DNA from: Candidatus Zipacnadia bacterium | GTDB lineage: Bacteria; Armatimonadota; Zipacnadia; Zipacnadales; UBA5352 | Assembly: GCA_029820295.1 (NCBI GenBank) | Contig: JALGVA010000046.1 | Coordinates: forward strand, 1 to 32,904 | Direction of reading: 5' to 3' | Length of the DNA stretch: 32,904 nt | Shown here: positions 3,077-31,826 of the stretch, one piece after another | Layout: each line of letters starts with the position of its first letter | Position numbering within the stretch: the stretch's first letter is position 1 | Position numbers and translations under genes: made by a program | Notes under the pieces: generated by a model | Database searches by the model: none | What the model saw: only the letters and a program-made list of their open reading frames with translations | Told to the model about the DNA's origin: nothing

Positions 3077-3233
3077 CCCGGCCTGACGTGCACGGTCGCC
3101 ATCGGTCGTGAGCTGTTGTCCTCCGTCGTTGGCTGACGCAATCAGCCGTTCGCTGCCGTACCCTGCCCGGTCTCAAGAGGCCACCGGGCCGGTCTGTGTA
3201 CTGGATGCCCCGCGAGAGGGTGCTGGTCCGTTG

Positions 3234-4232: not shown

Positions 4233-4271
4233 GTCGGCCACACCGTTACCGAGAGCTGGGAGGGACATCCC

Positions 4272-5420
4272 TTGGACTTCAGGTTCACCGAAGACGAGCA
4301 GATGATCATCGATGCCGTGCGCGAACTGGGCGAGGAGGAACTCGCGCCCCACGCGTCGGAAGTTGCTGAAAAGGGCGAGTTCCCCTACGACGCGGTCGAG
4401 CTGTGCCGCGAGATGGACCTGTTCGGTATCCCCGTCGAGGAGCAGTGGGGCGGCCTGGGCATGGGCTTTCTGATGTGGGGCACCGTCGGCGAGCTGCTCA
4501 GCTACTACTGCCAGACCACCGGCTCGGTCTTCGGCGCCCACGTCCTGGGCCAGTACCCCATCATGGCCTTCGGCACCGACGAGCAGAAGGAGAAGTACCT
4601 GGCGCCGCTGACCACCGGCGAGCATATCGGCGCCTTCGGCCTCACCGAGCCCAACGCCGGATCGGACGCGGGCTCGGTCGCCACCAGGGCCGAACTGCAT
4701 GGCGACAGGTACATCCTCAACGGCACCAAGATATTCATCTCCAACGGCGGCGTGGCGCAGACCTACGTCATCATCGCCAACCTCGACCCCCGCAAGGGCA
4801 CGCGCGGCCTGACCGCGTTTATCGTCGAGAAGGGCATGCCGGGCTTTGAGTTCGGCAAGGACGAGAAGAAGATGGGCTGGGACGCGCTGCCCAATCGCGA
4901 GCTGATCTTCCAGGACTGCGAGGTCCCGGTCGAGAACGTGCTCTACAAGCCCGGCCGCGGCTTCCGCGTCGCCATGGACACGCTCGGCGTGGGTCGCATC
5001 GGTATGGCTGTGGGCGCCGTGGGGCTGGCGCAGGCCGCCTTTGACGCCGCCATCCTCTACGCCCAGCAGCGCGAGCAGTTCGGCCAGAAGATCGCCGAGT
5101 TCCAGGCCATCCAGTTCATGCTCGCCGACATGGCCACCGACATCGAGGCCTCGCGCCTGCTCTACCAGAAGGCGGCCTGGCTCAAGGACCAGGGCGAGGC
5201 CTTCGAGATGATCGCGTCGATGGCCAAGGTCTACTCCTCCGAGGCGGTGAACCGCGTGACCTCGCAGGCGGTGCAGATCCACGGCGGCGTCGGCTACACG
5301 TGCGACTTCCCGGTGGAGCGCTACATGCGCGACGCCAAGCTGTTCGAGATCGTCGAGGGCACCTCGGAGATCCAGCGCGGCATCATCTCCAACCGGCTGC
5401 TGCGCGAGCATCGCATCTAG
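4272..5420 (+). CDS. Acyl-CoA dehydrogenase
   Basis: 382-residue FAD flavoprotein of the acyl-CoA dehydrogenase family, full length. Signatures are [14 protein letters not shown] (residues about 122-135), the FAD-loop text [24 protein letters not shown] and the C-terminal EGTSEIQRG, whose Glu362 matches the catalytic base of short-chain enzymes. It interconverts acyl- and enoyl-thioesters with Etf as partner. The start is TTG 4272: GGGAGGG at 4258-4264 lies 7 nt upstream and the protein then begins [10 protein letters not shown], typical for the family. AGGG (4261-4264) can pair with CCCT (4269-4272), a small hairpin that might mask the ribosome binding site. etfB and etfA follow directly. 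Placement between fabH and fabD is unusual and is discussed as a finding. Whether it works on CoA or ACP substrates, or in the reductive direction, cannot be read from the sequence. Confidence 0.93.
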
Positions 5421-5453
5421 GCGCCGCGCGCGACCACGCACTGGAGTTGACCG

Positions 5454-6236
5454 ATGAACATCATTGTGTGCATCAAGCAGGTTCCCGACACCTCGGAAGT
5501 GCGCATCGACCCCGAGACCAACACCATCGTCCGCGAGGGCGTGCCGTCGATCATCAACCCGTTCGACGAGAACGCCATCGAGGAGGCGCTGCTGCTGCGC
5601 GAGCAGCATGGCGGCAAGGTGACGGTCATCAGCATGGGCCCGCCGCAGGCCGAGGCGGCGCTGCGCGAGTCGCTGGCCATGGGCGCCGACGAGGCCATCC
5701 TGGTCTCCGACCGCTGCTTCGCGGCCAGCGACACGCTCGCGACCTCCTACGTGCTCTCCACCGCCATCCGGGCGATCGGCGAGTACGACCTGATCTTCTG
5801 CGGCAAGCAGGCCTTCGACGGTGACACCGCCCAGGTGCCGCCGGGGATCGCCGAGCAGCTCGGCATCCCGCAGATCACCTTCACCATCGGCCTCGAGGTG
5901 GACGGGCGCAAGGTCCGCGGCCGGCGCATGCTCGAGAGCGAGTTCGAGGTGGTGGAGGTGCGCATGCCCGCGCTGGTCTCGGTGGTCAAGCAGATCAATG
6001 AGCCGCGCCGCCCGGGCATCAAAGCCAAGCTGGCGGCCAAGAAGAAGGAAGTCACCATCTGGGACTCGGCGTGCATGGACATCGAGCCCTGCCTGTGCGG
6101 CCTCGACGGCTCGCCCACACGCGTGGTGCGCACCTTCGCCCCCACGCGCGAGATCAAGGGCGAGAAGTTTGAGGGCGAGCCCGCCGAGTGCGCCGCCGCG
6201 GTCATCGACCGCCTGATCGGCCAGAAGATCATCTGA
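5454..6236 (+). CDS. etfB: Electron transfer flavoprotein beta subunit
   Basis: 260-residue EtfB, the subunit that with EtfA carries electrons between acyl-CoA dehydrogenase and other carriers. It begins MNIIVCIKQVPDTSEV and carries INPFDENAIEEAL, ISMGPPQAE, MGADEAILVSDR, SDTLATSY and FDGDTAQVPPGIAEQLG. The DTLATSY and GDTAQV segments resemble Etf beta subunits of the bifurcating (Bcd/CarDE-like) type, which hold FAD where mitochondrial-type proteins hold AMP; this comparison is from memory. The C-terminal segment contains two extra cysteines (PCLCG). The start ATG 5454 is fixed by the conserved N-terminus, 33 nt after the acyl-CoA dehydrogenase stop. etfA follows after 99 nt. Confidence 0.95.
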   Translation: MNIIVCIKQVPDTSEVRIDPETNTIVREGVPSIINPFDENAIEEALLLREQHGGKVTVISMGPPQAEAALRESLAMGADEAILVSDRCFAASDTLATSYVLSTAIRAIGEYDLIFCGKQAFDGDTAQVPPGIAEQLGIPQITFTIGLEVDGRKVRGRRMLESEFEVVEVRMPALVSVVKQINEPRRPGIKAKLAAKKKEVTIWDSACMDIEPCLCGLDGSPTRVVRTFAPTREIKGEKFEGEPAECAAAVIDRLIGQKII

Positions 6237-6335
6237 CGTGCGCGCGCGGCACAGGTCGGGCAGCCCTGCCCACGCCGTTGCGTGCGGTGCGGCGCGAGAC
6301 ACCGGGTCCGCGTGCGACCCTTCGGGAGCGAAGAG

Positions 6336-7535
6336 ATGGCGATCTACATCGACGAGCCCAAGTGCATCGGCTGCGAGGCCTGCATTCCGGCGTGCCCCTA
6401 TGCCGCCATCGACATGGTCGATGGCATCGCGAAGTTCAACGAGAACTGCACGGGCTGCGGCGCCTGCGCCTACGCCTGCCCGACCGGAGCGATCGTGCTC
6501 GAGATGGCGCGCAAGGGGGAGGTGGACACCTCTGAGTACAGCGGCCTGTGGGTGGTGGGCGAGATTACACCCGAGGGCAAGCTGCACGGGGTGACCACCG
6601 AGCTGCTGGGCGAGGGGCGCAAGCTCGCGGCGGAGCTGGACACAACCGTGAGCGTGGTGCTCATCGGCCACCACATCGGCGAGCTGGCGAAGACCGCGGC
6701 GGGCTACGGCGCCGACCGCGTCTTCGTGGTCGATCACCCGACGCTGGAGCGTTACCGCACTCAGCCCTACACCAACGTGCTCACCGGGCTGATCAACAAG
6801 CACAAGCCCGAGATCGTGCTCATCGGCGCCACGCCCATGGGCCGCGACCTGGCCTCGCGCGTGGCCGCGCGCATCAAGGCCGGCCTGACCGCCGACTGCA
6901 CCGAGCTGACCATCAACCCCGAGACGAAGCTGCTCGAGCAGACCCGGCCCGCCTTCGGCGGCAACGTCATGGCCACCATCCTGTGCGAGTTCACCCGGCC
7001 GCAGATGGCCACGGTGCGGCCCAAGGTCATGGCCCCGCAGCCCTTCGACCAGAGCCACGAGGCCGAGATCATCGACATCCCCGTGGACATCGATGAGCGG
7101 GCCATCGCCACCAAGATCATCGAGATCATCAAGGACGACAGCGGCAGCGACGTCAACCTGACCGAGGCCGACATCATCGTCTCGGGCGGGCGCGGGCTGG
7201 GCGGCCCCGAGCACTTCGCGCTCATCCGCGAGCTGGCCGAGACCCTGGGCGCCGCGGTCGGCGCCTCCCGCGCCACGGTGGACGCCGGCTGGATCCCGGC
7301 CACCCACCAGGTGGGGCAGACGGGCAAGACCGTCCACCCCAAGCTCTACGTCGCCTGCGGCATCTCCGGCGCCGTGCAGCACCTGGCGGGCATGTCGTCG
7401 TCCGACTGCATCGTCGCCATCAACAAGGACCCGGACGCGCCCATCTTCAACGTCGCGCACTACGGCATCGTCGGCGACCTGTTCGAGGTCGTCCCGGCGA
7501 TGATCGCGGCCTTCAAAGAGCGGCGGGGCGACTGA
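6336..7535 (+). CDS. etfA: Electron transfer flavoprotein alpha subunit with N-terminal 2[4Fe-4S] ferredoxin domain
   Basis: 399-residue fusion. Residues 1-55 are a bacterial-type ferredoxin with two CxxCxxCxxxCP motifs (C10, C13, C16, C20 and C38, C41, C44, C48), predicted to bind two [4Fe-4S] clusters. The rest is EtfA: an N-terminal alpha/beta domain from about residue 70 and a C-terminal FAD domain with [39 protein letters not shown] and [11 protein letters not shown]. The same fusion is known in CarE of the caffeyl-CoA reductase complex of Acetobacterium woodii, which couples enoyl-CoA reduction by NADH to ferredoxin reduction. ATG 6336 is chosen because GGGAG at 6324-6328 is 7 nt upstream and the ferredoxin starts at once. 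The stop is 2 nt before fabD, so this redox trio is translated together with the fab genes. Confidence 0.95.
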
Positions 7536-7537
7536 CC

Positions 7538-8464
7538 GTGATTGCCTTCGTCTTCCCGGGCCAGAACTCGCACTACGTGGGCATGGGCCGCGACCTGCAT
7601 GACGCCGGCGGCCCCGCGCGCCCGGTCTTCGAGGTCGCCGAGGCCAGCCTCGGCGCCGACCTGCTGTCCGTCATGTTCGATGGGCCCGAGGAGGCGCTGA
7701 CCCGCACCGACAACCAGCAGCCGGCGATCGTCACGCACTCGCTCGCGGCGCTGGCGGAGTTGAGCGCGGCGGGCATCGCGCCCGACTTCGTCGCCGGCCA
7801 CAGCCTGGGTGAGTACTCCGCGGTCGCCTGCGCCGGCTGCCTGGATGTCGAGGGCGTGCTGGGGCTGGTGCGTTTCCGCGGCGAGCTGATGGCGCGCGCG
7901 GGCGATCAGGCGCCCGGCGCCATGGCCGCGGTGCTGGGCCTCGACGGCGAGGCGGTGACCGCCGCCGTTGAGGCCGCGCGGGAGGACGGCGTGGTCGTGG
8001 TCGCGAACTACAACTCGCCCGGGCAGGTCGTGATCTCCGGCGAGGTCGATGCCGTGGCGCGCGCCGGGGAGCTGTGCTCGGAGGCGGGCGCCAAGCGGGT
8101 GGTCGCGCTGGACGTAAGCGGCGCCTTCCACTCGCCGCTGATGGAGCCGGCGGCGGCGCCGCTTATCGAGCGGCTGGCGGCGACCGAGCTGGCGCCGGCG
8201 CGGGTGCCGGTCATCTCGAACGTGGACGCGCAGCCGCGCACCGAGCCCGACGCCATCCGCGACGCGCTCGGCCGGCAGATGACCAGCTCGGTCATGTGGG
8301 AGCACAGTGTCCGCCGCCTCGCCGAGGAGGGCGTGCACACCATCGTCGAGGTCGGACCGGGCACGGTGCTGGCCAGGCTCATCGGCCGCATCGACCGTGA
8401 GGTCAAGGTGCTGGGCGCCGACACCGTCGAGGACATCGAGGCCGTGGTCGAGCAGCTCGCCTGA
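7538..8464 (+). CDS. fabD: Malonyl-CoA:ACP transacylase
   Basis: 308-residue enzyme that transfers malonyl from CoA to acyl carrier protein for chain extension. The N-terminal FPGQNSHYVGMG forms the oxyanion hole, GHSLGEY holds the nucleophile Ser89, RFRGELM gives the conserved Arg, and SGAFHSPLM gives the catalytic His198. Length is normal. The GTG start at 7538 is only 2 nt after the etfA stop, so translation is probably coupled. fabG follows after 29 nt. This is the conserved fabD-fabG-acpP-fabF order. Confidence 0.97.
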   Translation: MIAFVFPGQNSHYVGMGRDLHDAGGPARPVFEVAEASLGADLLSVMFDGPEEALTRTDNQQPAIVTHSLAALAELSAAGIAPDFVAGHSLGEYSAVACAGCLDVEGVLGLVRFRGELMARAGDQAPGAMAAVLGLDGEAVTAAVEAAREDGVVVVANYNSPGQVVISGEVDAVARAGELCSEAGAKRVVALDVSGAFHSPLMEPAAAPLIERLAATELAPARVPVISNVDAQPRTEPDAIRDALGRQMTSSVMWEHSVRRLAEEGVHTIVEVGPGTVLARLIGRIDREVKVLGADTVEDIEAVVEQLA

Positions 8465-8493
8465 GCGGCGGGCTGCTCCCGGGAGGGTTTGTC

Positions 8494-9237
8494 TTGCAGC
8501 TTGAGGGCCAGGTCGCGCTCATCACCGGAGCGGGTGGCGGCATCGGCGCCGCCATCGCTCACGCGCTCGCCTCGGCCGGGGCCGGCGTCGTCATCAACGA
8601 CGTCGTCGAGGCCGCGGCCCAGAAGGTGGCCGATGAGGTCGCCGCCGCGCATGGCGTCGAGACCATGATCAGCACCGCCAACATCACCGACGCCGAGCAG
8701 GTTCAGGCGATGGTGGACGAGGTCATGGAGCGCTTCGGGCGCCTCGACATCCTGGTCAACAACGCGGGCATCACCCGCGACGCGTTACTGGTGCGCATGG
8801 ACGAGCAGGCGTGGGACCTGGTGCTCGACGTGAACCTCAAGGGCGCCTTCCTGTGCACGAGGGCGGTGGCGCGGCCGATGATGAAGGCGCGCGCCGGACG
8901 CATCATCAACATGGCCTCGGTCTCGGGCGTGGGCGGCAACGCGGGTCAGGCGAACTACTCGGCCTCCAAAGGCGGGCTGATCGCCCTGACCAAGACCACC
9001 GCCCAGGAGCTTGCCGGCCGCGGCATCACCTGCAACGCGCTCGCGCCGGGCTTCATCGAGACCGCCATGACCCGGGAGCTTCCCGAGGAGGCGCGCGCGG
9101 CGTGGCTGGAGCGCATCCCGCTGCGGCGGCCGGGCACACCCGAGGACGTCGCGCAGGCCGTGCTGTTCCTGGCCGGGCCGGGGGCCACCTACATCACCGG
9201 CCAGGTGCTCAACATCGACGGCGGACTGATCATGTAG
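8494..9237 (+). CDS. fabG: 3-oxoacyl-ACP reductase
   Basis: 247-residue short-chain dehydrogenase/reductase that reduces 3-oxoacyl-ACP to 3-hydroxyacyl-ACP with NADPH. The cofactor motif TGAGGGIG (residues 11-18), NNAG (89-92), and the catalytic Ser142, Tyr155 and Lys159 (YSASKGG) are all present; it ends in the family-typical TGQVLNIDGGLIM. The start is TTG 8494, supported by GGGAGGG at 8481-8487, 6 nt upstream, and by the fit of MQLEGQVALITGA to the usual FabG start. Acyl carrier protein genes follow. Confidence 0.96.
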   Translation: MQLEGQVALITGAGGGIGAAIAHALASAGAGVVINDVVEAAAQKVADEVAAAHGVETMISTANITDAEQVQAMVDEVMERFGRLDILVNNAGITRDALLVRMDEQAWDLVLDVNLKGAFLCTRAVARPMMKARAGRIINMASVSGVGGNAGQANYSASKGGLIALTKTTAQELAGRGITCNALAPGFIETAMTRELPEEARAAWLERIPLRRPGTPEDVAQAVLFLAGPGATYITGQVLNIDGGLIM

Positions 9238-9260
9238 CCGCGCATGGAGCTGACACTCGC

Positions 9261-9506
9261 ATAAGCGTCGCCGAGCGCGTGAAGTCGATCGTCGTGGAAG
9301 AGCTGGACGTGACCGAGAGCCAGGTCACCGACTCAGCCCCCTTCGAGGGGGATGTGCAGGCCGATTCGCTGATGGTGGTCGAGTTGATCATGGCGCTCGA
9401 AGACGAGTTCGACGTGGAGATCCCGGAGCAGGAAGCGCAGGAGATCACCACTGTCGGCGACGCCGTGCGCTACATCGAGGCCAGGGCCGGCAACGCGGGC
9501 GTCTGA
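9261..9506 (+). CDS. acpP: Acyl carrier protein, first copy, with unusual start codon (ATA)
   Basis: Acyl carrier protein of about 81 residues. The phosphopantetheine serine lies in [22 protein letters not shown] and the C-terminus reads [15 protein letters not shown]. The expected start position, just before [10 protein letters not shown], is ATA (9261-9263). GGAG at 9246-9249 lies 11 nt upstream, the same distance as GGAG to ATG in the second copy, and counting from ATA puts the active serine at residue 36, as in the second copy. Alternatives are GTG 9279, which would lose six residues of helix 1; a -1 frameshift from the ATG at 9244, whose frame stops at TAA 9262-9264; or a one-base assembly error. 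The residue after the DSL serine motif is Met where most ACPs have Asp. It lies 23 nt after fabG. Confidence 0.85.
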
Positions 9507-9598
9507 CGCGGCCCGGCGTCGGCCCGGCGCACAGGCAGGATAGTCCGGGCGGCCTTCGCCCGATCGCAGTGAGACAACGAAACGGAGATGAGACACTC

Positions 9599-9832
9599 AT
9601 GGCGCTGTTCGAGCAGGTGAAGGAAGTCATCGTGCGCGAGCTTTCCGTCCCCGAGAGCTGGGTCACGGAGTCGGCGACCTTCGAGGGCGACCTCAAGGCC
9701 GATTCGCTTGACGTCGTTGAGCTGGTGATGGCGCTCGAGGACGAGTTCGACGTTGACATCCCTGAGGACGACGCACAGCAGATCCAGACGGTGGGCGACG
9801 CGGTGCGCTATCTCGAGGAGAAGTCCAAGTAA
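9599..9832 (+). CDS. acpP: Acyl carrier protein, second copy
   Basis: 77-residue acyl carrier protein, the carrier of growing fatty-acyl chains. Ser36 in [18 protein letters not shown] is the site of 4'-phosphopantetheine attachment, and the acidic helix and the ending [14 protein letters not shown] are typical. The start is ATG 9599 with GGAG at 9584-9587; in-frame codons from 9569 add a non-homologous Arg-rich stretch. It shares about half its residues with the first copy 92 nt upstream, so the pair looks like an old tandem duplication rather than a recent one. This copy has the standard DSLD motif and is the likelier general carrier. A perfect hairpin (9874-9902) separates it from fabF. 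Confidence 0.96.
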
Positions 9833-9842
9833 GCCGACCCGC
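9827..9842 (+). repeat. 16-nt exact repeat at the stop of acpP copy 2 (second copy at 29893-29908)
   Basis: AAGTAAGCCGACCCGC covers the stop region of the second acpP and occurs again at 29893-29908, across the end of the acidic HTH gene. Both copies precede an inverted repeat: 9874-9902, and a weaker one at 29908-29936 (CGGGCAC/GTGCCCG). With only two copies in a GC-rich window this may be chance. Confidence 0.3.
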
Positions 9843-9873
9843 ACAGAGAGTGGGGAGACTGCGGAATGGCCAT

Positions 9874-9902
9874 CACCCGCACACTTTCCCGGTGTGCGGG
9901 TG
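9874..9902 (+). other. Perfect 11-bp stem-loop between acpP and fabF
   Basis: CACCCGCACAC (9874-9884) pairs fully with GTGTGCGGGTG (9892-9902) around the 7-nt loop TTTCCCG. There is no T run after it and fabF starts 38 nt later, so full termination is less likely than partial attenuation, mRNA processing or 3'-end stabilisation of the acpP message. acpP often needs much more product than its operon partners, which would fit such an element; this is inference. Confidence 0.6.
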
Positions 9903-9940
9903 CAGGCCAGTATCCGTCGCGGTAGTGAGGGCCTGAGCTG

Positions 9941-11182
9941 ATGAGCAGACGCGTTGTTATCACCGGACTGGGCACCATCTCGGCTGTCGGTCGCGGCCTG
10001 GACACGCTGTGGGAGGCGTGTCTGGCGGGCCGCACCGGCATCGGTCACATCCAGCGCTTCGACCCGTCCGAGTACAAGACGCGCATCGGGGCGGAGGTCG
10101 ACGCGGACTTCGACCCGAGCGACCGCATCGACGAGAAGCTGATCAAGCGCGCCGATCCCTTTGCCAAGTACGGCCTGTGGGCCGCGGACGTCGCGCTCGA
10201 GCAGTCCGGGCTGGTCATCGACGACGGCAATCGCGCTGAGGTGGGCGTACTCATTGGCTCGGGCATCGGCGGCATGAGCACGTGGGAGGAGCAGTTCGAG
10301 CGGCTGCTCAGCCGCGGCCCCGGCCGCGTGTCGCCCTTCCTCGTGCCGATGATGATCATCGACATGGCGTCGGGGCTGATGTCGATCCACAGCGGGGCCA
10401 TGGGGCCCAACTCGGCGGTGGTCACCGCCTGCGCTTCCGGCTCGCACGCCATCGCCGCCAGCGTGGACCTGATCAAGGCGGGGCGCGCGCAGGCGGTCAT
10501 CACCGGCGGCGCCGAGGCGGGCATCAGTCAGAGCGCACTGGCCGGCTTCTGCTCCGCCGGGGCGCTGTCGGAGCGCAACGACGACCCGGCCACGGCCTGT
10601 CGCCCCTTCGACAGGACCCGCGACGGTTTCGTCATGGGCGACGGCGCCACCGGCGTAATCGTCGAGAGCCTGGACTACGCGCGTGAGCGCGGCGCGCCCA
10701 TCCTGGCGGAGATCATCGGCATCGGCATGAGCGGCGATGCCCATCACATCACCGAGCCCTGCCCGGACGGGGCCGGTGCCGCGCTGGCGATGGACGCCGC
10801 GTTCAAAGACGCCGGCCTGTCGCCCGCGGACATCGACTACGTGAACGCCCACGCCCCCGGGACCCTCGCGGGCGACGCCGGCGAGGCCTGCGCCCTCAAG
10901 CGGTCCTTCGGCGAGTACGCCGGCAGCGTCCCGATCTCATCGACCAAGCCGGTGCACGGACATATGCTCGGGGCCACCGGGCCGACCGAGCTGGGGCTGT
11001 GCATCAAGGCGATGCAGGAGGGCATTATCCCGCACACGCTCAACTGCACCGACCCGGAGCCCGAGGGGCTGGACATCGTCATGGGAGAGCCACGCGAGGC
11101 CGAGGTGCGGGTGGCCATGTCCAACTCCTTCGGCTTCGGCGGACACAACATCTCGCTCATCATCCGCCGCTTCGAGGAGTGA
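9941..11182 (+). CDS. fabF: 3-oxoacyl-ACP synthase II (KAS II)
   Basis: 413-residue condensing enzyme that extends acyl-ACP with malonyl-ACP. The catalytic residues are present: Cys164 in VTACASGSHAIA, His304 in VNAHAPGT and His341 in VHGHMLGATG, with the Lys of SSTKP and the C-terminal NSFGFGGHN. The loop after the first His is unusual: most KAS II proteins read NAHGTST, here it is NAHAPGT, so the first of two conserved Thr residues that contact the phosphopantetheine arm is replaced while the second is kept. ATG 9941 gives the standard start MSRRVVITGLG. It lies 108 nt after the second acpP, and rnc follows after 49 nt. Confidence 0.95.
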   Translation: MSRRVVITGLGTISAVGRGLDTLWEACLAGRTGIGHIQRFDPSEYKTRIGAEVDADFDPSDRIDEKLIKRADPFAKYGLWAADVALEQSGLVIDDGNRAEVGVLIGSGIGGMSTWEEQFERLLSRGPGRVSPFLVPMMIIDMASGLMSIHSGAMGPNSAVVTACASGSHAIAASVDLIKAGRAQAVITGGAEAGISQSALAGFCSAGALSERNDDPATACRPFDRTRDGFVMGDGATGVIVESLDYARERGAPILAEIIGIGMSGDAHHITEPCPDGAGAALAMDAAFKDAGLSPADIDYVNAHAPGTLAGDAGEACALKRSFGEYAGSVPISSTKPVHGHMLGATGPTELGLCIKAMQEGIIPHTLNCTDPEPEGLDIVMGEPREAEVRVAMSNSFGFGGHNISLIIRRFEE

Positions 11183-11231
11183 AGCCGCCCGCCGGTCGGC
11201 AGCGAGGAGCCGGTGCGGCCGGTGACATCAG

Positions 11232-11933
11232 GTGCCCGATCGTCTGCGCGAACTCATCCAGCGGCTCGATCTGCACGACCTGCCCGGCGATCTCGTGGAA
11301 CTCGCCTTCCGTCACACGTCGTACACGCGGGAGCTGTCCCTGCCTGAGGTCGCCAGCAACCAGCGGCTTGAGTACCTGGGTGACGCGGTGATCGACCTGG
11401 TCTTCGCGGATCACCTCTACATAACCTATCCGGAGCTGACCGAGGGCGACCTGACGCGTTTGAAGGCCGCCCTCGTGCGCAAGTCGGCGCTGGCCTCGGT
11501 GGCGCGCAAGCTGAGCCTCGGGGACTTCCTGCTGCTGGGCTACGGTGAGGAGAACAGCGGCGGCCGCAACAAGGCTTCGCTCCTTGCCGACCTCGTCGAG
11601 GCGCTGCTCGGCGCCATCTTCATCGTGCGCGGCTACCAGGGGGCCTACGACTTCGTGCTCGAGCACTTCGACGACCTGCTCGAGGACGTGGTCAACCGCG
11701 ACAGCCTCAGCGACGACAAGTCGGCGCTGCAGGAGCTGCTTCAGGCCCGGGGCGAGGCGCCGCCGAACTACGTGGTCGTGTCCACGGCCGGACCCCCGCA
11801 TGACCGCTGGTTCACCATCGAGGCAGTGCTGCGCGGGCAGGTCATCGGTCGTGGGGAGGGGCGCTCCAAGCGGGCCGCGGAGCAGGCGGCGGCGGCCGAT
11901 GCCCTCGATGCGGTGGATGAGTGGCTGACATGA
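11232..11933 (+). CDS. rnc: Ribonuclease III
   Basis: 233-residue double-strand-specific endoribonuclease for rRNA and mRNA processing. The signature NQRLEYLGDAVIDLVFADH (about residues 44-62) carries the metal-binding Glu and Asp; ADLVEALLGAIF holds the second catalytic Glu. A C-terminal double-strand RNA-binding domain (from about residue 160; KSALQELLQ, GRGEGRSKRAAEQAAA) completes the normal length. The start is GTG 11232 (MPDRLRELIQRL). Its place after fabF/acpP is widely conserved. Its TGA (11931-11933) overlaps the ATG of the next gene as ATGA. Confidence 0.96.
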   Translation: MPDRLRELIQRLDLHDLPGDLVELAFRHTSYTRELSLPEVASNQRLEYLGDAVIDLVFADHLYITYPELTEGDLTRLKAALVRKSALASVARKLSLGDFLLLGYGEENSGGRNKASLLADLVEALLGAIFIVRGYQGAYDFVLEHFDDLLEDVVNRDSLSDDKSALQELLQARGEAPPNYVVVSTAGPPHDRWFTIEAVLRGQVIGRGEGRSKRAAEQAAAADALDAVDEWLT

Positions 11934-24822: not shown

Positions 24823-25707
24823 ATGTCCGACAGGCAGCTTCGCATCGGGCTCCCCAAGGGCAGCCTGCAGAACTCGACCGTCGAGCTGTTCCGCAAGGCC
24901 GGCTTCTCCGTCACCGTCGATGAGCGCGCGTACTCGCCCGACCTGGGCGACCCCGAGCTGTGGGGCGTGCTGCTGCGCGCCCAGGAGCTGCCGCTGTACA
25001 TCGACCACGGCGTGCTCGACTGTGGCCTGACCGGCTACGACTGGATCCTCGAGCGCGACGTCGACCTCGTCGAGGTCAGCGACCTGATCTACGCCAAGGG
25101 CGGCATGCGCCCCTACCGCTGGGTGCTCGCGGTGCACGAGAACTCCGACATTAACGGCGTACAGGACCTGCAGGGCAAGCGCATCGCCACCGAGCTGGTC
25201 GATGTGACCCGGCGCTGGCTGGCCGAGCATGGCGTCGAGGCCGAGGTCGAGTTCTCCTGGGGCGCCACCGAGGCCAAGTGTCCCGACCTGGTGGATGCGG
25301 TCATCGAGGGCACCGAGACCGGCAGCACGCTGCGCGCGAACAACCTGCGCATTATCGAGACCCTCTTCGAGTCATGCACGAAGTTCGTGGCGAATCAGGA
25401 GGCCTGGGCCGATCCGTGGAAGCGCGAGAAGATCGAGACCATCTCGTTGCTGCTCAACGCGGCGCTGGCGGCCGAGACGAGGGTCGGACTGAAGATGAAC
25501 GCGCGGGAGGCGGACCTGCCGGCGGTCATCGCCGCGCTGCCCGCGCTGAAGAACCCGACTGTGTCTCCGCTGGCCAACGGCGGCGAGCCGTGGGTGGCCG
25601 TTGAGACCATCGTGGACACCGCGATGGTCAAGGACCTGATCCCCGCGCTGAGGGCCGCCGGGGCCCAGGGGATCATCGAGTACCCGCTCACCAAGGTCGT
25701 CCTCTGA
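24823..25707 (+). CDS. hisG: ATP phosphoribosyltransferase, long form
   Basis: 294-residue first enzyme of histidine synthesis, joining ATP and PRPP. The N-terminal RIGLPKGSLQ, GLTGYDWI and the PRPP-binding motif VIEGTETGSTLRANN are characteristic. The length and the C-terminal ACT-like part (about residues 215-294; TRVGLKMNAREADLPAVIAALPAL, ending AQGIIEYPLTKVVL) make it the HisG(L) form, which is inhibited by histidine and needs no HisZ. ATG 24823 follows the LysE-type gene closely. No other his gene lies in the window. A perfect hairpin follows 30 nt after its stop. Confidence 0.96.
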   Translation: MSDRQLRIGLPKGSLQNSTVELFRKAGFSVTVDERAYSPDLGDPELWGVLLRAQELPLYIDHGVLDCGLTGYDWILERDVDLVEVSDLIYAKGGMRPYRWVLAVHENSDINGVQDLQGKRIATELVDVTRRWLAEHGVEAEVEFSWGATEAKCPDLVDAVIEGTETGSTLRANNLRIIETLFESCTKFVANQEAWADPWKREKIETISLLLNAALAAETRVGLKMNAREADLPAVIAALPALKNPTVSPLANGGEPWVAVETIVDTAMVKDLIPALRAAGAQGIIEYPLTKVVL

Positions 25708-25736
25708 GGTCTGCCGTGAGCCGCTTGAGGGCCATG

Positions 25737-25764
25737 CGGGGCGCACGAGCGGTCGTGCGCCCCG
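25737..25764 (+). terminator. 12-bp perfect hairpin after hisG
   Basis: CGGGGCGCACGA (25737-25748) pairs with TCGTGCGCCCCG (25753-25764) around GCGG, followed by TTGCTTG. It lies 30 nt after the hisG stop and directly before the next TTGACA (25769), the same hairpin-then-promoter layout as at 21158-21220. Confidence 0.7.
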
Positions 25765-25768
25765 TTGC

Positions 25769-25797
25769 TTGACAGCCCATCGGGTTTGCGGTAAGTT
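25769..25797 (+). promoter_or_regulatory. Promoter of the zinc-ribbon/TPR gene group
   Basis: TTGACA (25769-25774), 17-nt spacer, TAAGTT (25792-25797; 3 of 6 consensus bases). The palindrome CAATATTG (25815-25822) lies just past the expected start site and could be an operator. The leader to ATG 25876 is about 70 nt and AT-richer than the surroundings. Confidence 0.6.
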
Positions 25798-25875
25798 ATC
25801 CTTGAGGTAGTGTGCAATATTGGTTGTGAAACTGCGACAAAGCTCCACTGCCATCCTCTCACGGTGTTGATTGCC

Positions 25876-27297
25876 ATGGCACAGTGCACGGAGTGCGGAG
25901 CACGCAACGCCGAGCAGGCCACCTTCTGCGTCCGCTGTGGCGCCGAGCTGCGGGCGGAGGCCGCGCCGGGGGGCGTGCCCGGTCAGGACACGGACCGCAT
26001 CGACCCGGTCGAGGGCGACATCGTCGCCGAGGGCGCGCCGGAGCAGACGATGGTGATGGAGCCGTCGGAGGCGCCGGCGGCCGCGCCGGTTCCGGAGGCC
26101 GAGCGGCTGCTGCGCGATGCCTCGGCCAAGCTGGGCCGGGGCGACGCCGATGGTGCGGCCATGGACTGCCGCGAGGCGATCTCGCTCGCCCCGGACCTGG
26201 TCGGCGCGTACTCGCTGCTGGGCATGGCCGAGGAGCAGCGCGGCAACACGGTGGCGGCGGCGGGGGCTTACCGGCGCGTGCTGCAGCTTGACCCGGGGCG
26301 CAACGTTGAGCGGGAGAAGCTGGAGGCGCTCTACGAGACCGGCGGGGCATCGCGCCCCGAGGGGGAGGAGTTCGACGAGGCCGGGGAGAGTCCGGTGCTG
26401 CGCTTCGCGCCCTGGATCGCGGCGGCGGCGGCGGCCTTTTTCGTGCTGATGATCCTGACCGCCGTCGGCCTGCGCGTGCACAGCGCGCGCCAGGCCGAGC
26501 GAGCGTACGACCGGCAGATGGCCGTGGCTGAGCAGGCGATGGAGACCGGCGACTACGGCGCCGCGGTTGACGCCTTCCAGGCGGCGCTGCGCTTGCGGCC
26601 CGGCGACGAGGAGGCCGAGAAGCTGCTGCGCTGGGCGCGGCGCAAGTCGGCCATGGCGCAGTCGCCCGGCGGCTACGCGGACATCCCCCGGCCCGTGCCC
26701 CGGCTCGCCGATGTGCTGCCGTCGACCGGCCCGAACCCGTTCCTGCCTGTGCCCATCGGCAAGCGCACGCCGGCGCCCGACGCGCTCGACCAGCCGCAGA
26801 CCCGGCAGTCGCGCACGCCGGCGACGCGCCCGCCGATCGTCTCCACCGAGCGCGTTGTCGGCGGGCAGCAGGCGACCGGCACCGGCACCGGAACCACCGA
26901 GCCGGTGCCCTTCGGGCCGCTGGATGTCCCCGACGAGGGCGGTGGCCAACCCGCCGCCGAGGATCAGGGGGAGGAGACCGGCGAACCCGCGCCCGAGCCC
27001 GAGCCGCGCGGCGAGATCTCGATCTGGGTGAGCGACGCCCCACCGCAGGGGAGCCAACAGCAGCCGCCGACGGCCTCCCGCAGCCTGGGGGCTTCGCAGG
27101 CCGCGGAACTGCGCAGCCAGGCCGATCAGGCACGTGCCGGCGGCGACTGCGAGCGCGCGTCCGAACTCTACGGCGCGGCGATTGAGGCGTACCGCTCCGA
27201 CACCGAGAGCAATCCGGGCAATCGCCAGGTGAACGAGGCCGCCATCGAGGCGTGCGAGCGCGCCCGCAGCCTGTGCGAGGCCGCGGAGGGGCAGTGA
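25876..27297 (+). CDS. Zinc-ribbon, TPR-containing membrane protein
   Basis: 473-residue protein with a clear domain order. Residues 1-25 are a zinc ribbon (C4, C7, C18, C21; CTECGARNAEQATFCVRCG). Residues about 75-155 are TPR-like (DADGAAMDCREAISLAPDLVGAYSLLGMAEEQRGN). One membrane helix lies near 177-199 (WIAAAAAAFFVLMILTAVGL). A second short TPR follows (about 210-250), then a long Pro/Gly/Thr-rich linker (about 260-400) and a C-terminal TPR-like helix pair (about 410-470). TPRs on both sides of a membrane helix suggest a scaffold. ATG 25876 places the zinc ribbon at the very N-terminus; GTG 25864 is also in frame. It overlaps the next gene by 4 bp. The function is unknown. Confidence 0.75.
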   Translation: MAQCTECGARNAEQATFCVRCGAELRAEAAPGGVPGQDTDRIDPVEGDIVAEGAPEQTMVMEPSEAPAAAPVPEAERLLRDASAKLGRGDADGAAMDCREAISLAPDLVGAYSLLGMAEEQRGNTVAAAGAYRRVLQLDPGRNVEREKLEALYETGGASRPEGEEFDEAGESPVLRFAPWIAAAAAAFFVLMILTAVGLRVHSARQAERAYDRQMAVAEQAMETGDYGAAVDAFQAALRLRPGDEEAEKLLRWARRKSAMAQSPGGYADIPRPVPRLADVLPSTGPNPFLPVPIGKRTPAPDALDQPQTRQSRTPATRPPIVSTERVVGGQQATGTGTGTTEPVPFGPLDVPDEGGGQPAAEDQGEETGEPAPEPEPRGEISIWVSDAPPQGSQQQPPTASRSLGASQAAELRSQADQARAGGDCERASELYGAAIEAYRSDTESNPGNRQVNEAAIEACERARSLCEAAEGQ

Positions 27298-29000
27298 GCG
27301 TGTTGAGGCACTCGCGTGCCGCGCTCGGGCTGGCCGCGTTGCTGGCGCTGCTGGGCGGGTGCGCGCTCAGCGCGGCCGGGCAGCCGGCACGCACCGTCGG
27401 GCTCATGGTGGCCCCCGCCGGGGAGCGGCTCGCTGAGCATGAGGCGCTGTTCGCCGACGCGCTTGTGGGCGAGCTGGTCGCCATGGATCTGCAGGCGGTC
27501 TTCCTGCATGACGCCTCCCCGCTGTTGAGCGCCACCGGCGCGTCCCTGCCCGCCGTGACCGCCACCGATGACTGGACGCCCCTCGCGACTGTCCTCGACC
27601 GTCTCGCCGCCCGCCTGCGCCTCGATTACGTGGCGCTGGTCGCGATCGGCGCCTCCGGATCTGCCGAGGCGCCGAAGGCGATGCTCGTGGCGCGCGGGGG
27701 GGCCTCCGCGTCCGGCTCGTGCCAGGCGCCGGTGACGCACAGCGCGGAGGACCTCGCAGCCGCCGTTGCCGGGCGCCTCGCGGCGTTGATGGCCGAGGTG
27801 GGCGAGCCGCGCGAAGCGGACGATGAGCCGGTCGTGGCGGCGGACACCGGCGAGGCCGCCGCTCCGGCGCCCGCCGCGGACGAGGACACCGTCCCGCCTG
27901 CCGTCCCCGCCGCGGAAACGCCCGCCACCGACGAGCCGCCCGTCGAGGGCGAGCAGACGCCCGCCGCTCCTGAGGCCGGAGGCGAGCCCGCCGGCCCGAC
28001 CGACGATCCCCTGGGCGCGGCGCGTGCGGCCTACGAGCGCGGTGACTACGAGCGCGCCGCGATCCTGCTGCGTGAAGTCGCCAACGAAAGCGGCCCGACC
28101 GCACAGATGTACCTGCTGCGCGCGCGCGTGCGCGTGGCGCTGCAGCTCCGCGACGAGGCGCTCGATGACCTGCAGCGCGCGGTCGCGCTCGACCCCGAAC
28201 TCGTCGAAGCGCGCGTGTGGCTGGCAGGGATGCTCGCCGAGCGCGGGCTGTGGCAGAACGCCATCGATCACTACCGGCAGGCGCTGGCCGTAGACCCGAT
28301 GAACGTCAGCGCATCGCTCGGGCTGGCGCGCGTCTACCGCGATCACGGCCATCGCCGCAAGGGCATTGCGCTGCTCAGCGACGCGATCAGGGCCGGACAG
28401 AGCGACCCGTCGCTGCTGGTGCTGCTGGCCGAGCTGCACCAGCTCGAGGGCAACTTCGAGCAGGCCGAGGCCGCGCTGCTGCAGGTAGTCGCGGTCACCT
28501 CGGGCGAGGCGCAGGCGGCGGCGCTTGAGCGCCTGGGCGACCTCTACGCGGGCGCCGGGCGCAACCGCAATGCCCTTACGTGCTACCTGCGCGCCGCCGA
28601 GCTGAGTCAGTCGCGCGCCAGCATGGTGCGGCGGCGCTACCTCGACGTCATGGCCGCCGCGGATAACTCCGTGCACGAGGCGCTCACCTCCGGCTGGAGC
28701 GCCTTCGAGGAGTACGCTCGCGATGGCATCGGCGAGCGCGAGATGGTCTACCGCCGCCTGAGCGAGGTGCGCGCACAGCTCCAGGAGGCGATGAGCTTCG
28801 CCGACAGCGTGCGCCCGCCCGAGGGACTGCGCGCCGAGCACGCGCGCAGGCAGTACGCCTACTCGCTCGCGGTCGAGGCCACGGTGGCGGCGCTGTCGTA
28901 CCTGGACCTGGGCGACGACGCCATGCGGGAGCGCGCCACCATGCGCCAGCGGGACGCGATGGCCGAGTTCAACGGCCTGCGCGCCGGGCCGGGCGGCTAG
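27294..29000 (+). CDS. TPR-repeat lipoprotein
   Basis: 568-residue predicted lipoprotein. The signal LALLGG-C places the lipidated Cys at residue 23. Residues 30-165 form an alpha/beta domain resembling periplasmic ones that precede TPRs (RTVGLMVAPAGERLAEHEALFADALVGELV). Residues about 170-240 are Pro/Ala/Glu-rich. Five or so TPRs follow (from about 243; AARAAYERGDYERAAILLREVAN, DLQRAVALDPELVEARVWLAGML, AIDHYRQALAVDPMNVSASLGLARVY, AERLGDLYAGAGRNRNALTCYLRAAEL). GTG 27294 overlaps the preceding stop (GTGA); GTG 27300 has better distance to GGAGGG (27285-27290). It is probably a partner of the TPR membrane protein before it, on the cell surface or in the periplasm. Confidence 0.75.
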   Translation: MSVLRHSRAALGLAALLALLGGCALSAAGQPARTVGLMVAPAGERLAEHEALFADALVGELVAMDLQAVFLHDASPLLSATGASLPAVTATDDWTPLATVLDRLAARLRLDYVALVAIGASGSAEAPKAMLVARGGASASGSCQAPVTHSAEDLAAAVAGRLAALMAEVGEPREADDEPVVAADTGEAAAPAPAADEDTVPPAVPAAETPATDEPPVEGEQTPAAPEAGGEPAGPTDDPLGAARAAYERGDYERAAILLREVANESGPTAQMYLLRARVRVALQLRDEALDDLQRAVALDPELVEARVWLAGMLAERGLWQNAIDHYRQALAVDPMNVSASLGLARVYRDHGHRRKGIALLSDAIRAGQSDPSLLVLLAELHQLEGNFEQAEAALLQVVAVTSGEAQAAALERLGDLYAGAGRNRNALTCYLRAAELSQSRASMVRRRYLDVMAAADNSVHEALTSGWSAFEEYARDGIGEREMVYRRLSEVRAQLQEAMSFADSVRPPEGLRAEHARRQYAYSLAVEATVAALSYLDLGDDAMRERATMRQRDAMAEFNGLRAGPGG

Positions 29001-29011
29001 GCGGGCGCCGG

Positions 29012-29239
29012 ATGATGGAGCAGATGGGGCGCGTGCTCATCATCGTGGGGGCCGTTGCGCTCGCCGCGGGGGTGCTGCTGGTCGTGCTGGGCCGGTTCGC
29101 TCCCGAGGGGCGACTGCTGCCCGGAGACATCGTCATCCGGCGGCCGGGCTTTACGCTTTACCTGCCGCTGGCAACTATGATCGTACTCAGCCTGGCCCTC
29201 AGCGGGCTGATGTGGCTGATCGCCTACCTGCGGCGATGA
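29012..29239 (+). CDS. DUF2905-type small membrane protein
   Basis: 75-residue protein with two membrane helices (about 8-27, VLIIVGAVALAAGVLLVVLG, and 50-71, LPLATMIVLSLALSGLMWLIAYL) joined by GRLLPGDIVIRRPGFTLYLPL. The GDI.i.r......PL connector is the hallmark of DUF2905, a small family of unknown function found in many phyla. It starts at ATG 29012 or 29015, 12 nt after the TPR lipoprotein, and is probably in the same transcript. Confidence 0.85.
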   Translation: MMEQMGRVLIIVGAVALAAGVLLVVLGRFAPEGRLLPGDIVIRRPGFTLYLPLATMIVLSLALSGLMWLIAYLRR

Positions 29240-29279
29240 GCGCGCACCGACGCGCTCCACCGGAAGGGGCACAGTTGTC

Positions 29280-29894
29280 ATGCTGATGCACGAGTGGATC
29301 CGCTACCGCAACCAGCAGGTGAAGCCCACCTCCAACGAGGAGGAGGGCGCCGAGCTGGCCGCCGAAGAGCGGGAAGCCGAGGACGCGGTCGAGACCGCAA
29401 CCGATCAGGCCGAGTTGGTGGCAGAGCCCGAGGAGGAGGCGGCCGACGAGCCGGCCGTCGAGGAAGCCGAGCCCGCGCCCGCGGCTCAAGCGCCGCCGGC
29501 CGATGCCGAGAGTACCGACAGAGAGCGGGAGAAGGTGCTGTCCTCCCTGCACGAGGAACTCGAGCGCGCAGGGGAGAGCATCCGCGAGCGCGTGCGTCAG
29601 TTGCAGGCTCGGCAGAAGCAGTTGCCCATCGAGATCGAAGAGCCCGTCGAGGAAGAGGACGAGGAGCGGCCGCGGCGGGCCAGCGAGACGCGCCAGGAGC
29701 TGGTGCAGCGCCTGCTCGACCCGACGCTGACGCTGCGTGAGGCCTCACTGCTGCTGGACGTGTGCCCGACGACGGTGCGCCGTTACACGAATCGCGGACT
29801 GCTCAACTGCTTCCGCACGCCCGGCAACCAGCGGCGCTTCCACCTGTCGGACGTCCTCGAGTTCATGGAGCGCCGCGAGCAGGGCGAGGTGTAA
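29280..29894 (+). CDS. Acidic protein with C-terminal MerR/BldC-like helix-turn-helix
   Basis: 204-residue protein. Residues 18-80 are a Glu/Ala/Pro-rich, probably disordered segment; 81-115 look like a coiled coil (REREKVLSSLHEELERAGESIRERVRQLQARQ); 118-130 are very acidic. Residues 149-198 form a helix-turn-helix of the MerR/excisionase kind: LTLREASLLLDVCPTTVRRYTNRGLL...TPGNQRRFHLSDVLEFM, with the wing motif Q-R-R-F typical of BldC-like DNA-binding proteins. The HTH at the C-terminus instead of the N-terminus is uncommon. ATG 29280 follows GGAAGGGG (29262-29269) by 10 nt. The response regulator gene lies 71 nt downstream. It is likely a transcriptional regulator; its target is unknown. Confidence 0.8.
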   Translation: MLMHEWIRYRNQQVKPTSNEEEGAELAAEEREAEDAVETATDQAELVAEPEEEAADEPAVEEAEPAPAAQAPPADAESTDREREKVLSSLHEELERAGESIRERVRQLQARQKQLPIEIEEPVEEEDEERPRRASETRQELVQRLLDPTLTLREASLLLDVCPTTVRRYTNRGLLNCFRTPGNQRRFHLSDVLEFMERREQGEV

Positions 29895-29965
29895 GTAAGC
29901 CGACCCGCGGGCACCCCTCCCGGTCTCCCGTGCCCGAAGCCCAACTCGACCGCGAGGGATGCCCC

Positions 29966-30646
29966 ATGTCCGCACGAGTCTGGCTGATGATGGCCCCGGG
30001 CGACACGCGCGAGCGCACCGCCCGTGGCCTCGAGGATCGGCGCATTGCCGTGGATGTCTTTGCGGACTCCAAGGCTGCGCTGGCGGCTGAAAACGTGACG
30101 CGGCCTGACGTCGCGGTCGTCGAGCTGGATCATGGCGACGGCTCGGCCGCTGAGATATGCCGGCGGGTGCACGCGACAACGGGGGCAGCGGTGATCGGCC
30201 TGGGCCATCCCGCTCGCGTCTCGGCCGTGGAGGTGGTGCGCGCCGGGGCCGACGACTTCGTGCCGTCGATGATCGGCCCGGACGAGCTGGTGGCGCGCGT
30301 GCGGGCGCTGCTGCGGCGGATCATCGAGTACCGCGGCGTGAGGTCGCGCGTGATCCGGGCGGGGGAGGTCGTCGTGGATCGGGAGCGCCATGCCGTGAGC
30401 GTGTGCGGTCGCGACGTGGCGCTCACGCCGCGCGAGTTCGACTTGCTGTGCGAGCTGGCCCGCGGCGCCGGCGAGCTGATGCGGCGCGAGGACCTGCTGG
30501 CGAAGGTCTGGGGCCTCGACGAGTCGATCTCGACGCGCACGCTGGACGTGCACATCGCCCGGCTGCGCAGGAAGATCGAGCGCGACCCATCGCGCCCCGA
30601 GCTGATCGTGACCGTCCCGCGCGTCGGCTACCGCATGGCCGCCTGA
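29966..30646 (+). CDS. OmpR/PhoB-type response regulator with degenerate receiver
   Basis: 226-residue protein. The N-terminal 120 residues have receiver-like length and layout (RPDVAVVEL, VVRAGADDFV, DELVARVRALLRR), but the active site is lost: the acidic pair after strand 1 is Met-Met-Ala (8-10), the phospho-acceptor is Glu53, the Thr after strand 4 is Gly (VIGLGHP) and the conserved Lys is absent (DDFVPSMIGP). The C-terminal winged helix is intact: VALTPREFDLLCELAR, LMRREDLLAKVWG, TLDVHIARLRRKIE and VPRVGYRM. It should bind DNA without normal phosphorylation. ATG 29966 follows GAGGG by 7 nt; upstream in-frame codons belong to the preceding gene region. No histidine kinase gene lies nearby. 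Confidence 0.9.
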   Translation: MSARVWLMMAPGDTRERTARGLEDRRIAVDVFADSKAALAAENVTRPDVAVVELDHGDGSAAEICRRVHATTGAAVIGLGHPARVSAVEVVRAGADDFVPSMIGPDELVARVRALLRRIIEYRGVRSRVIRAGEVVVDRERHAVSVCGRDVALTPREFDLLCELARGAGELMRREDLLAKVWGLDESISTRTLDVHIARLRRKIERDPSRPELIVTVPRVGYRMAA

Positions 30647-30692
30647 TGCCGCGCGTCACCGCTCCGGCGGGCGACGGCCTGCGGCGCGGCAG

Positions 30693-31826
30693 ATGGAGCT
30701 GGTGACTGCGCAGATGACCATCACGACCGTCGAGCCGCGCCACCTGCTGGTACCGCTCGACGCCCCCATCCCGGCTTCGGCGGCCCGTCCGCTTACCGAG
30801 GCGCTCACCATCCACCTCGTGCGCGTTGCCTGCGATGACGGCTCCGTTGCCTGGGGGGAGGCGTGGTGGGCGGACGCCGCCGAGGTGGACGAGGCCATCG
30901 CCACGCTCGGCCCCGTCGTCTGCGGCGCTGACCCTCTCGATCGCGGCGCGCTGTGGGAGCGCATGGTCGATCGGCTCACCGGCATGAAGCAGCCCCTCCC
31001 CGGCGGCGCCGCGGCACTGAGCGCCATCGACGTCGCCCTGTGGGACCTGGCGGGGCGCGCCGCGGGGATGCCGGTCTACCGCATGCTCGGCGGTCGGCGC
31101 CTCGCGCGCCTCGACGCCTACGCCCTCGGCATCTACCTTGAGGAGCCCGACATCGCCGCCCGCAAGGCGCGCGAACTGCTCGAGCGCGGCTTCCACGCGC
31201 TCAAGATCAAGTTCGGGGCCGGGCTCGAGCGCGACCTGGCGGTGCTCGAAGCGGTGCGCGAGGCGGTGGGGCCGCAGGTGCCCGTGCTCGTGGACGCCAA
31301 CCAGGCGGGCACGGACCGGGCCGCGGCGATGGAGGTCGGCGCGGCACTGGACCGGCACGAGGCGTTCTGGTACGAGGAGCCGCTCCCGCCGGGCGACTGG
31401 AGCGACTACGTGGCGCTGCGCCATGCCCTCGACACGCCCATCGCCGGTGGCGAGCGCCTGCGCTCGCCGGGCGCCTTCCTCGAGGCCTTGCGCGTGGGCG
31501 CGCTCGACGTGGCCATGCCCGACGTGCGCCTGTGCGGCGGCATTACCGGGCTGGTGAAGACCGCGGAGCTGTCGCGGTGGTTCGGCGTGCGCGTCAGCCC
31601 GCACAACTGGATCTCGCGGCTGGGGGCCATCGCCTCGGCACATGCAGCGGTGACGCTCCCCAACTGCCTGATGACGGAGATCGAGGCCACGCCCACGGTG
31701 GTGGACCAGCGCCTGCTCGACCCACCGCTGCGCCTCGAAGACGGCTTCGTGGTGGTGCCCGAGGGCCCGGGGCTGGGCGTGACCGTGAACGAGTCGTTCG
31801 TCGAGGAGTTCGCCACCGGCGCCTGA
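30693..31826 (+). CDS. Enolase-superfamily enzyme, mandelate racemase subgroup
   Basis: 377-residue (beta/alpha)7-barrel enzyme that abstracts the alpha-proton of a carboxylate. Mandelate-racemase-type residues are all visible: K171-x-K173 (LKIKFG), metal ligands Asp201 (VDANQ), Glu228 (YEEPLPP) and Glu254 (GGERL), the Asp277/His304 dyad (MPDVRLCGG and SPHNW) and a Glu near 329. This pattern favours the racemase/sugar-acid dehydratase subgroup rather than muconate cycloisomerase. ATG 30693 is used; GTG 30702 and ATG 30714 are in-frame alternatives, with GGAG at 30695-30698 that would suit one of them. The substrate is unknown, probably an acid sugar. It begins 46 nt after the response regulator and ends 34 nt before the next gene. 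Confidence 0.88.
   Translation: MELVTAQMTITTVEPRHLLVPLDAPIPASAARPLTEALTIHLVRVACDDGSVAWGEAWWADAAEVDEAIATLGPVVCGADPLDRGALWERMVDRLTGMKQPLPGGAAALSAIDVALWDLAGRAAGMPVYRMLGGRRLARLDAYALGIYLEEPDIAARKARELLERGFHALKIKFGAGLERDLAVLEAVREAVGPQVPVLVDANQAGTDRAAAMEVGAALDRHEAFWYEEPLPPGDWSDYVALRHALDTPIAGGERLRSPGAFLEALRVGALDVAMPDVRLCGGITGLVKTAELSRWFGVRVSPHNWISRLGAIASAHAAVTLPNCLMTEIEATPTVVDQRLLDPPLRLEDGFVVVPEGPGLGVTVNESFVEEFATGA

Follow-up and report, generated by a model that had tools for sequence, protein, structure and literature searches.

Published frequencies show that response regulators with a degenerate receiver are a kind already known. According to passages of a 2025 review, one count gives pseudo-receivers a share of about 6% among the receivers of bacteria, and Asp-less receivers amount to about 4% over all life (PMC12632262); an excerpt of another study puts the Asp-less share of OmpR-type architectures at 2% (PMC4395418). 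The same review states that pseudo-receivers apparently arose on many independent occasions, and it calls the switching of the bacterial ones a mystery (PMC12632262). Orphan atypical regulators of the OmpR/PhoB type with a degenerate receiver include HP1043 of Helicobacter and CosR of Campylobacter, and HP1043 functions without phosphorylation and is a dimer in solution (PMC8345958, abridged source). ChxR of Chlamydia, another atypical OmpR/PhoB-type regulator, is without the catalytic residues including the Asp, and forms a phosphate-free dimer that binds DNA (excerpt of PMC3960148). HP1043 and ChxR thus serve as precedents for phosphate-free dimeric DNA-binding regulators. Pseudo-receiver regulators under the control of a partner protein, namely Rem of Agrobacterium and BldM/WhiI of Streptomyces, are also described in the passages of the review (PMC12632262).

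The window, which is the whole stretch of DNA analyzed here, is one entire contig of 32,904 bases (C42 of a 5.6-Mb genome). The regulator and its neighbors are listed in Table 1; TPR protein 1 possibly starts at 25873 instead. Elsewhere in the window, positions 2072-11933 hold what we take, from the reading of the open reading frames, to be a fatty-acid synthesis run (plsX, fabH, fabD, fabG, acyl carrier proteins, fabF, and rnc). Between fabH and fabD lie presumably an acyl-CoA dehydrogenase gene and both electron-transfer flavoprotein genes, and the flavoprotein alpha gene presumably encodes a ferredoxin-like N terminus.

Table 1. Positions of the atypical regulator, its two parts and the neighboring genes in the window.
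Feature	Position	Strand	Evidence
TPR protein 1, N-terminal zinc ribbon, conserved operon member	25810..27297	+	TPR_1, Zn_Ribbon_1; synteny
TPR protein 2, conserved operon member	27252..29000	+	Pfam TPR models; synteny
DUF2905 small protein, conserved operon member	29012..29239	+	PF11146 67.7 bits; synteny
BldC/MerR-like HTH protein, 204 aa, acidic N-terminal half; conserved upstream neighbor	29280..29894	+	
Complete gene of the atypical OmpR/PhoB-type response regulator (226 aa)	29966..30646	+	translation; PF00486; AlphaFold2
Receiver part (M9, A10, E53, G80, S101 = five catalytic positions)	29966..30330	+	alignments
Winged-helix effector domain	30353..30643	+	PF00486; conserved recognition helix
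Mandelate racemase/muconate lactonizing-type enzyme, downstream neighbor	30693..31826	+	PF13378 206 bits, PF02746 45.3 bits; synteny

The regulator consists of a degenerate receiver (residues about 1-121) and a winged-helix DNA-binding domain (residues about 130-226). The original prediction had described a receiver stripped of its active-site residues, with Glu53 at the phospho-acceptor position and an intact winged helix, and this description was confirmed. In alignments with canonical regulators of the same clade, none of the five residues that mark a canonical phospho-regulator (acid pair, Asp, Thr/Ser, and Lys) was retained. The acid pair is replaced by M9 and A10, with M8 standing just before the pair; the Asp is replaced by E53, the Thr/Ser by G80, the Lys by S101, and the Pro after the conserved Lys by M102. 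The range given earlier, 29966-30330, held for the receiver part, but the whole gene extends to 30646, and small corrections of the numbering were made. PF00486 (Trans_reg_C) matched the protein with 89.8 bits (cut-off 26.2) and extended to residue 224, as found in OmpR/PhoB-type regulators, and PF00072 scored 26.8 bits (E 6.2e-6), which is below its curated cut-off of 30.2. The AlphaFold2 model showed a receiver-like fold, with a mean pLDDT of 92.1 and a pTM of 0.59; the latter value indicates that the two domains were well predicted singly and that their mutual placement is unreliable. Both halves matched solved response-regulator domains in fold and PDB comparisons. Judged from its residues, the protein appears to have no phosphorylation site left, and phospho-free activity is predicted.

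Among the matches listed, the canonical regulators MtrA, RegX3, KdpE, and RpaA were closest to the window regulator by sequence and fold. Compared with them, it has mostly kept the dimer-face and DNA-contact residues, whereas all five catalytic residues are lost. It scored 145.5 bits with the MtrA equivalog model NF040689 (cut-off 300) and stayed below every NCBIfam cut-off among the models listed. The degenerate receiver resembles those of HP1043 and CosR, both of which were among the fold matches. The gene neighbors of HP1043 and CosR differ from those of the window regulator. In the PDB sequence search, HP1043 (2hqr) matched with an E value of 3.6e-12, versus 3.2e-32 for MtrA and 4.6e-33 for RegX3; a grouping with HP1043 was rejected, since 2hqr ranks behind many canonical regulators. 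The window regulator is like ChxR in having lost the catalytic residues including the Asp, but here a phosphate-free dimer would only follow by inference. A grouping with ChxR was rejected as well, since ChxR was absent among the best 60 of 68 PDB sequence matches and among the 50 fold matches listed, which leaves kinship possible. Taken alone, the window regulator is an ordinary atypical regulator. No paper on the degenerate regulators of these families was found in a literature search that mostly lacked subscription journals, a result that says little on novelty.

Ten genomes of the same family (f1), including that of the window, were compared, and an ortholog was found in eight. The acid pair, Thr, and Lys were gone in all eight. 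In the other two genomes (G006 and G008), both flanking genes were present with only about 104 and 73 bases between them, a gap so short that the regulator gene must be absent there. Across the order, the upstream HTH gene was found in 38 of 41 genomes, and an OmpR-type regulator lay next to it on the same strand in 32 of the 37 testable genomes. The distance from the HTH gene to the regulator was within about 0.4 kb between match edges, with the exception of G034 (1.9 kb). The five genomes with the HTH gene and no regulator were G006, G008, and the f3 genomes G013, G015, and G016; where the regulator is absent, the mandelate racemase/muconate lactonizing-type gene directly follows the HTH gene. 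The testable genomes do not include G021, G024, and G028, in which the HTH gene was not found, or G014, whose contig ends 310 bases from the HTH gene. In G010 and G011, which are among the 32, a contig end truncates the regulator; both copies look degenerate, and they were omitted from the active-site counts. The G017 regulator was read from a TTG start.

Thirty full-length regulators occupied this slot in the order, and 29 of them, including the window protein, were degenerate. The exception was a canonical regulator with all five residues in family f5 (G025). Among the 29 degenerate syntenic orthologs, the first acid and the Lys were never found, the second acid (Asp) was present in 4, and Thr at position 80 in 1. 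None of the five residues was kept in 19 orthologs and one in 10; in no case was more than one kept. These counts agree with the original prediction in that the regulator would be cut off from Asp phosphorylation. As to whether relatives carry a normal Asp and Lys, an Asp at position 53 was found in 5 of the 29, but the Lys in none, and the regulators of this slot that have all five residues (G025, G051, and G052) all lie outside the degenerate clade. The Y-T coupling pair (Tyr/Phe plus Thr/Ser) was looked for and found in 0 of the 29 orthologs.

Of 34 PF00072 matches in the genome of the window, 30 other receivers were inspected, and only one (L029, which is the same gene as L046) also retained none of the five residues. 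All five were present in 23 of 24 canonical regulators of the same genomes. A scan of the genomes' contigs gave 80 loci, and the active site, inspected in 40, was intact (5/5) in 38; the remaining two (L099 and L100) were cut or poorly aligned at the start. The degenerate state of the slot regulator recurs in 29/29 full-length orthologs, with only one more such receiver in the own genome, so it is more than chance.

Two side observations were made in this survey. A second group of OmpR-type regulators with conserved surroundings exists in the same family, comprising L046 (G000:C60:14514-15197), L041, L042, L043, L047, L052, L053, L057, and L058. L042 (G005) is canonical, L041 (G001) is part-way, and the other seven are degenerate; this group seems to lose its active site independently. 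In addition, the genome of the window encodes a partly degenerate receiver (L026, G000:C63:24524-24841) with two of the five residues in a rough alignment; the receiver gene next to it (L012) retains all five.

The original prediction had put forward that Glu53 may mimic the phosphorylated state, which could keep the regulator always in its active form. According to the consulted passages of the review, Glu is the commonest substitute for Asp in Asp-less receivers and partly activates many regulators, and the effect of such a Glu perhaps depends on its binding to the conserved Thr and Lys (PMC12632262). Glu53 was found in the window protein and four others of the 29 orthologs. However, among the eight family members three had Glu at position 53, four had Asp, and one had Arg, with Asp in the other genome of the same genus (G004), and across the 29 orthologs Asp occurred in 5 and His in 7, with Val, Cys, Gln, and others elsewhere. 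Because the Thr and Lys presumed to bind the Glu are both lost and the Glu changes within the genus, the phosphomimic reading fails, and we regard it as very unlikely. Glu53 as the key feature was likewise rejected, as position 53 is not conserved. By its distribution among the orthologs, Glu53 is incidental and would not serve as a switch.

Both the receiver and the winged helix are under purifying selection. The dN/dS of the receiver was 0.14-0.45 (eight computable of 10 close pairs), and that of the DNA-binding domain was 0.11-0.27 (10/10 close pairs). A decaying, functionless gene heading for loss could also account for a stripped receiver. In the degenerate groups the receiver does diverge faster than the DNA-binding domain (identity ratio of receiver to DNA-binding domain 0.66-0.76), whereas in canonical groups it does so less or not at all (0.87-1.13), and the whole gene is gone in f3, G006, and G008. 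Decay is nevertheless extremely unlikely: none of the 29 full-length copies has an interrupted reading frame, the receiver is constrained as above, the regulator is kept in four families, and the residues for dimerization and DNA contact are conserved. In the recognition helix, R191, D194, H196, R199, and R201 are invariant in 29/29 orthologs.

For the dimer face, the pairs Lys87-Glu107, Asp97-Arg111, Asp96-Arg118, and 92-113 of alpha4-beta5-alpha5 were taken from portions of two papers (PMC8329863, PMC4773095). The window protein has D96, D97, E107, R111, R113, and R118, and Ala87 where Lys87 is expected. E107, R113, and R118 were each found in all 29 orthologs, D96 in 21, D97 in 17 (Glu in 11), and R111 in 17 (His in 11); Lys87 was missing in 29/29. 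A D97/R111 or E97/H111 pair was present in 26 of the 29, and the E97/H111 pair was limited to f6, where it may represent one event. As far as sequence can show, the dimer face is largely kept and the recognition helix near-invariant. Two places after the lost Lys, Ala, Ile, Leu, or Val stood in 20 of the 29 orthologs, whereas 22 of the 24 canonical regulators have Phe there. Residues A, I, L, and V at this site move CheY toward active forms, as stated in the passages of the review (PMC12632262).

Selection on a receiver despite its lost catalytic site would also be expected if it sensed a small molecule, the redox state, or another modification instead of phosphate, and RitR (5u8m), a redox sensor that descends from response regulators, was among the fold matches. 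The 29 receivers share no newly conserved cysteine or pocket residue, however, and C65, the commonest residue at its position (19/29), is frequent in canonical regulators too (75%). We therefore consider sensing of this kind quite unlikely.

The direction of the change was traced with genomes outside the order. In G051 (f7) and G052 (f8), which belong to the same class, the regulator that comes after the same HTH gene retains all five residues, and neither regulator was found to have a kinase gene beside it. G054 and G055, also of this class, carry the HTH gene but no regulator. Among more distant genomes of the phylum, 169 of which had an HTH match, no regulator after the HTH gene was seen in the 28 loci inspected. 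An RpoB tree built from 29 genomes united f1, f2, f3, f4, and f6 in a clade with an SH-aLRT of 100 and placed G025, G051, and G052 outside it. The full-length regulator tree did not join the canonical f5, f7, and f8 copies to the degenerate clade, and long branches and shared catalytic residues may distort the tree at these copies. The tree of the DNA-binding domain only was poorly resolved, with 29 of 58 inner branches open, and a clade of all HTH-linked regulators was not rejected (p-AU 0.35), which is non-rejection and no proof. The trees do not include L039, L054, L059, and L060, which are short, cut, or divergent. As the regulator tree does not join the copies, descent in place rests mainly on the shared slot and on this non-rejection.

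The ancestor would have been an ordinary phospho-regulator, an orphan whose gene directly followed that of a BldC/MerR-like HTH protein, and phospho-chemistry would have been lost in the common ancestor of f1, f2, f3, f4, and f6, most simply once. The whole gene would subsequently have been lost in f3, G006, and G008. A single ancestral loss followed by whole-gene losses fits these distributions as the simplest account, judged from the trees and the synteny, and the whole-gene losses show that the regulator is dispensable.

In line with the original prediction that no kinase gene adjoins the regulator, no HATPase_c domain was found anywhere on the contig of the window, where the regulator lies 2.3 kb from the contig end. 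The genome encodes 24 HATPase_c domains elsewhere. Canonical regulators often, though not always, share an operon with a kinase gene. In relatives whose contigs are longer, the nearest kinase domains listed on the same contig were about 8 kb (G018), 15 kb (G025), 33 kb (G032), 37 kb (G031), and 60 kb (G001) away.

The HTH protein encoded upstream matched HTH_17 (48.7 bits) and MerR_1 (27.3 bits). Its HTH domain is related to BldC of Streptomyces, although it scored 36.5 bits with the BldC model NF033787, below the cut-off of 77; BldC has 68 residues according to the part of the source available (PMC5859096), in contrast to the 204 residues and acidic N-terminal half of the upstream protein. 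Of 291 genomes of the phylum, 211 carried the HTH domain, often without the regulator. Among ten further genomes queried for this HTH, only an Armatimonadetes genome (CSP1-3) gave a match, which suggests that the phylum is Armatimonadota. In two f6 genomes (G030:C35:61896-62285 and G027:C205:6343-6684), the HTH gene match contains one in-frame TGA, which is a sequencing error, a frame choice, or a real break.

The original prediction had named this protein as a possible partner. One explanation is that it controls the regulator, which would be inactive unless the two form a complex on shared DNA sites. The conserved adjacency of the two genes (32/37), which also holds for canonical regulators, speaks for such a link, as do the finding of no degenerate regulator in genomes shown to be without the HTH gene and the partner control of BldM/WhiI among atypical regulators, the last as described in passages of the review (PMC12632262). 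On the other hand, the HTH gene is far more widespread and outlives the regulator in 5 of 37 genomes, which indicates that it does not need the regulator, and the pairing is older than the loss of phospho-chemistry. The protein thus stands as a conserved neighbor and a possible partner, and an obligate complex is rather unlikely.

A broader form of this idea can be offered only tentatively, as we doubt it. The HTH protein and the regulator would form one DNA-binding unit, in which the common ancestor of these families came to rely on binding of the acidic partner instead of phosphate. The operons would then make up a natural series, some with a canonical regulator (f5, f7, and f8), some with a degenerate one, and some with none, that traces how a phospho-switch becomes a partner-controlled switch. 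No shared DNA site was recognized by eye in the 71-134 bases that separate the HTH gene from the regulator in eight f1 genomes. A promoter scan of 25600-30760 gave no promoter-like site, and a terminator scan of this interval gave one terminator-like site versus 0.9 expected. Between hisG and the first TPR gene (25705-25872), a GC-rich hairpin followed by TTGACA and TAAGTT spaced 17 bases apart was seen by eye and missed by the scan; this stretch is perhaps the end of one transcription unit and the start of the next.

The window regulator is probably a phosphorylation-independent DNA-binding regulator with a pseudo-receiver, subject to control through its abundance or a partner, in which the loss of catalytic residues is ancestral and Glu53 incidental. 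Its receiver would have been stripped of phospho-chemistry while the protein was retained to bind DNA. Dimerization through alpha4-beta5-alpha5 would proceed without phosphate, and the activating-type residues two places past the lost Lys may help it. Control would be exerted through how much regulator is made or through a protein partner, for which the BldC-like neighbor is a candidate.

The clade offers a clean series, with most simply one loss, canonical relatives in the same slot, degenerate copies under selection, and clean gene losses. If this holds true, the question of what substitutes for phosphate would become approachable by comparing ancestor-like and derived proteins of one locus.
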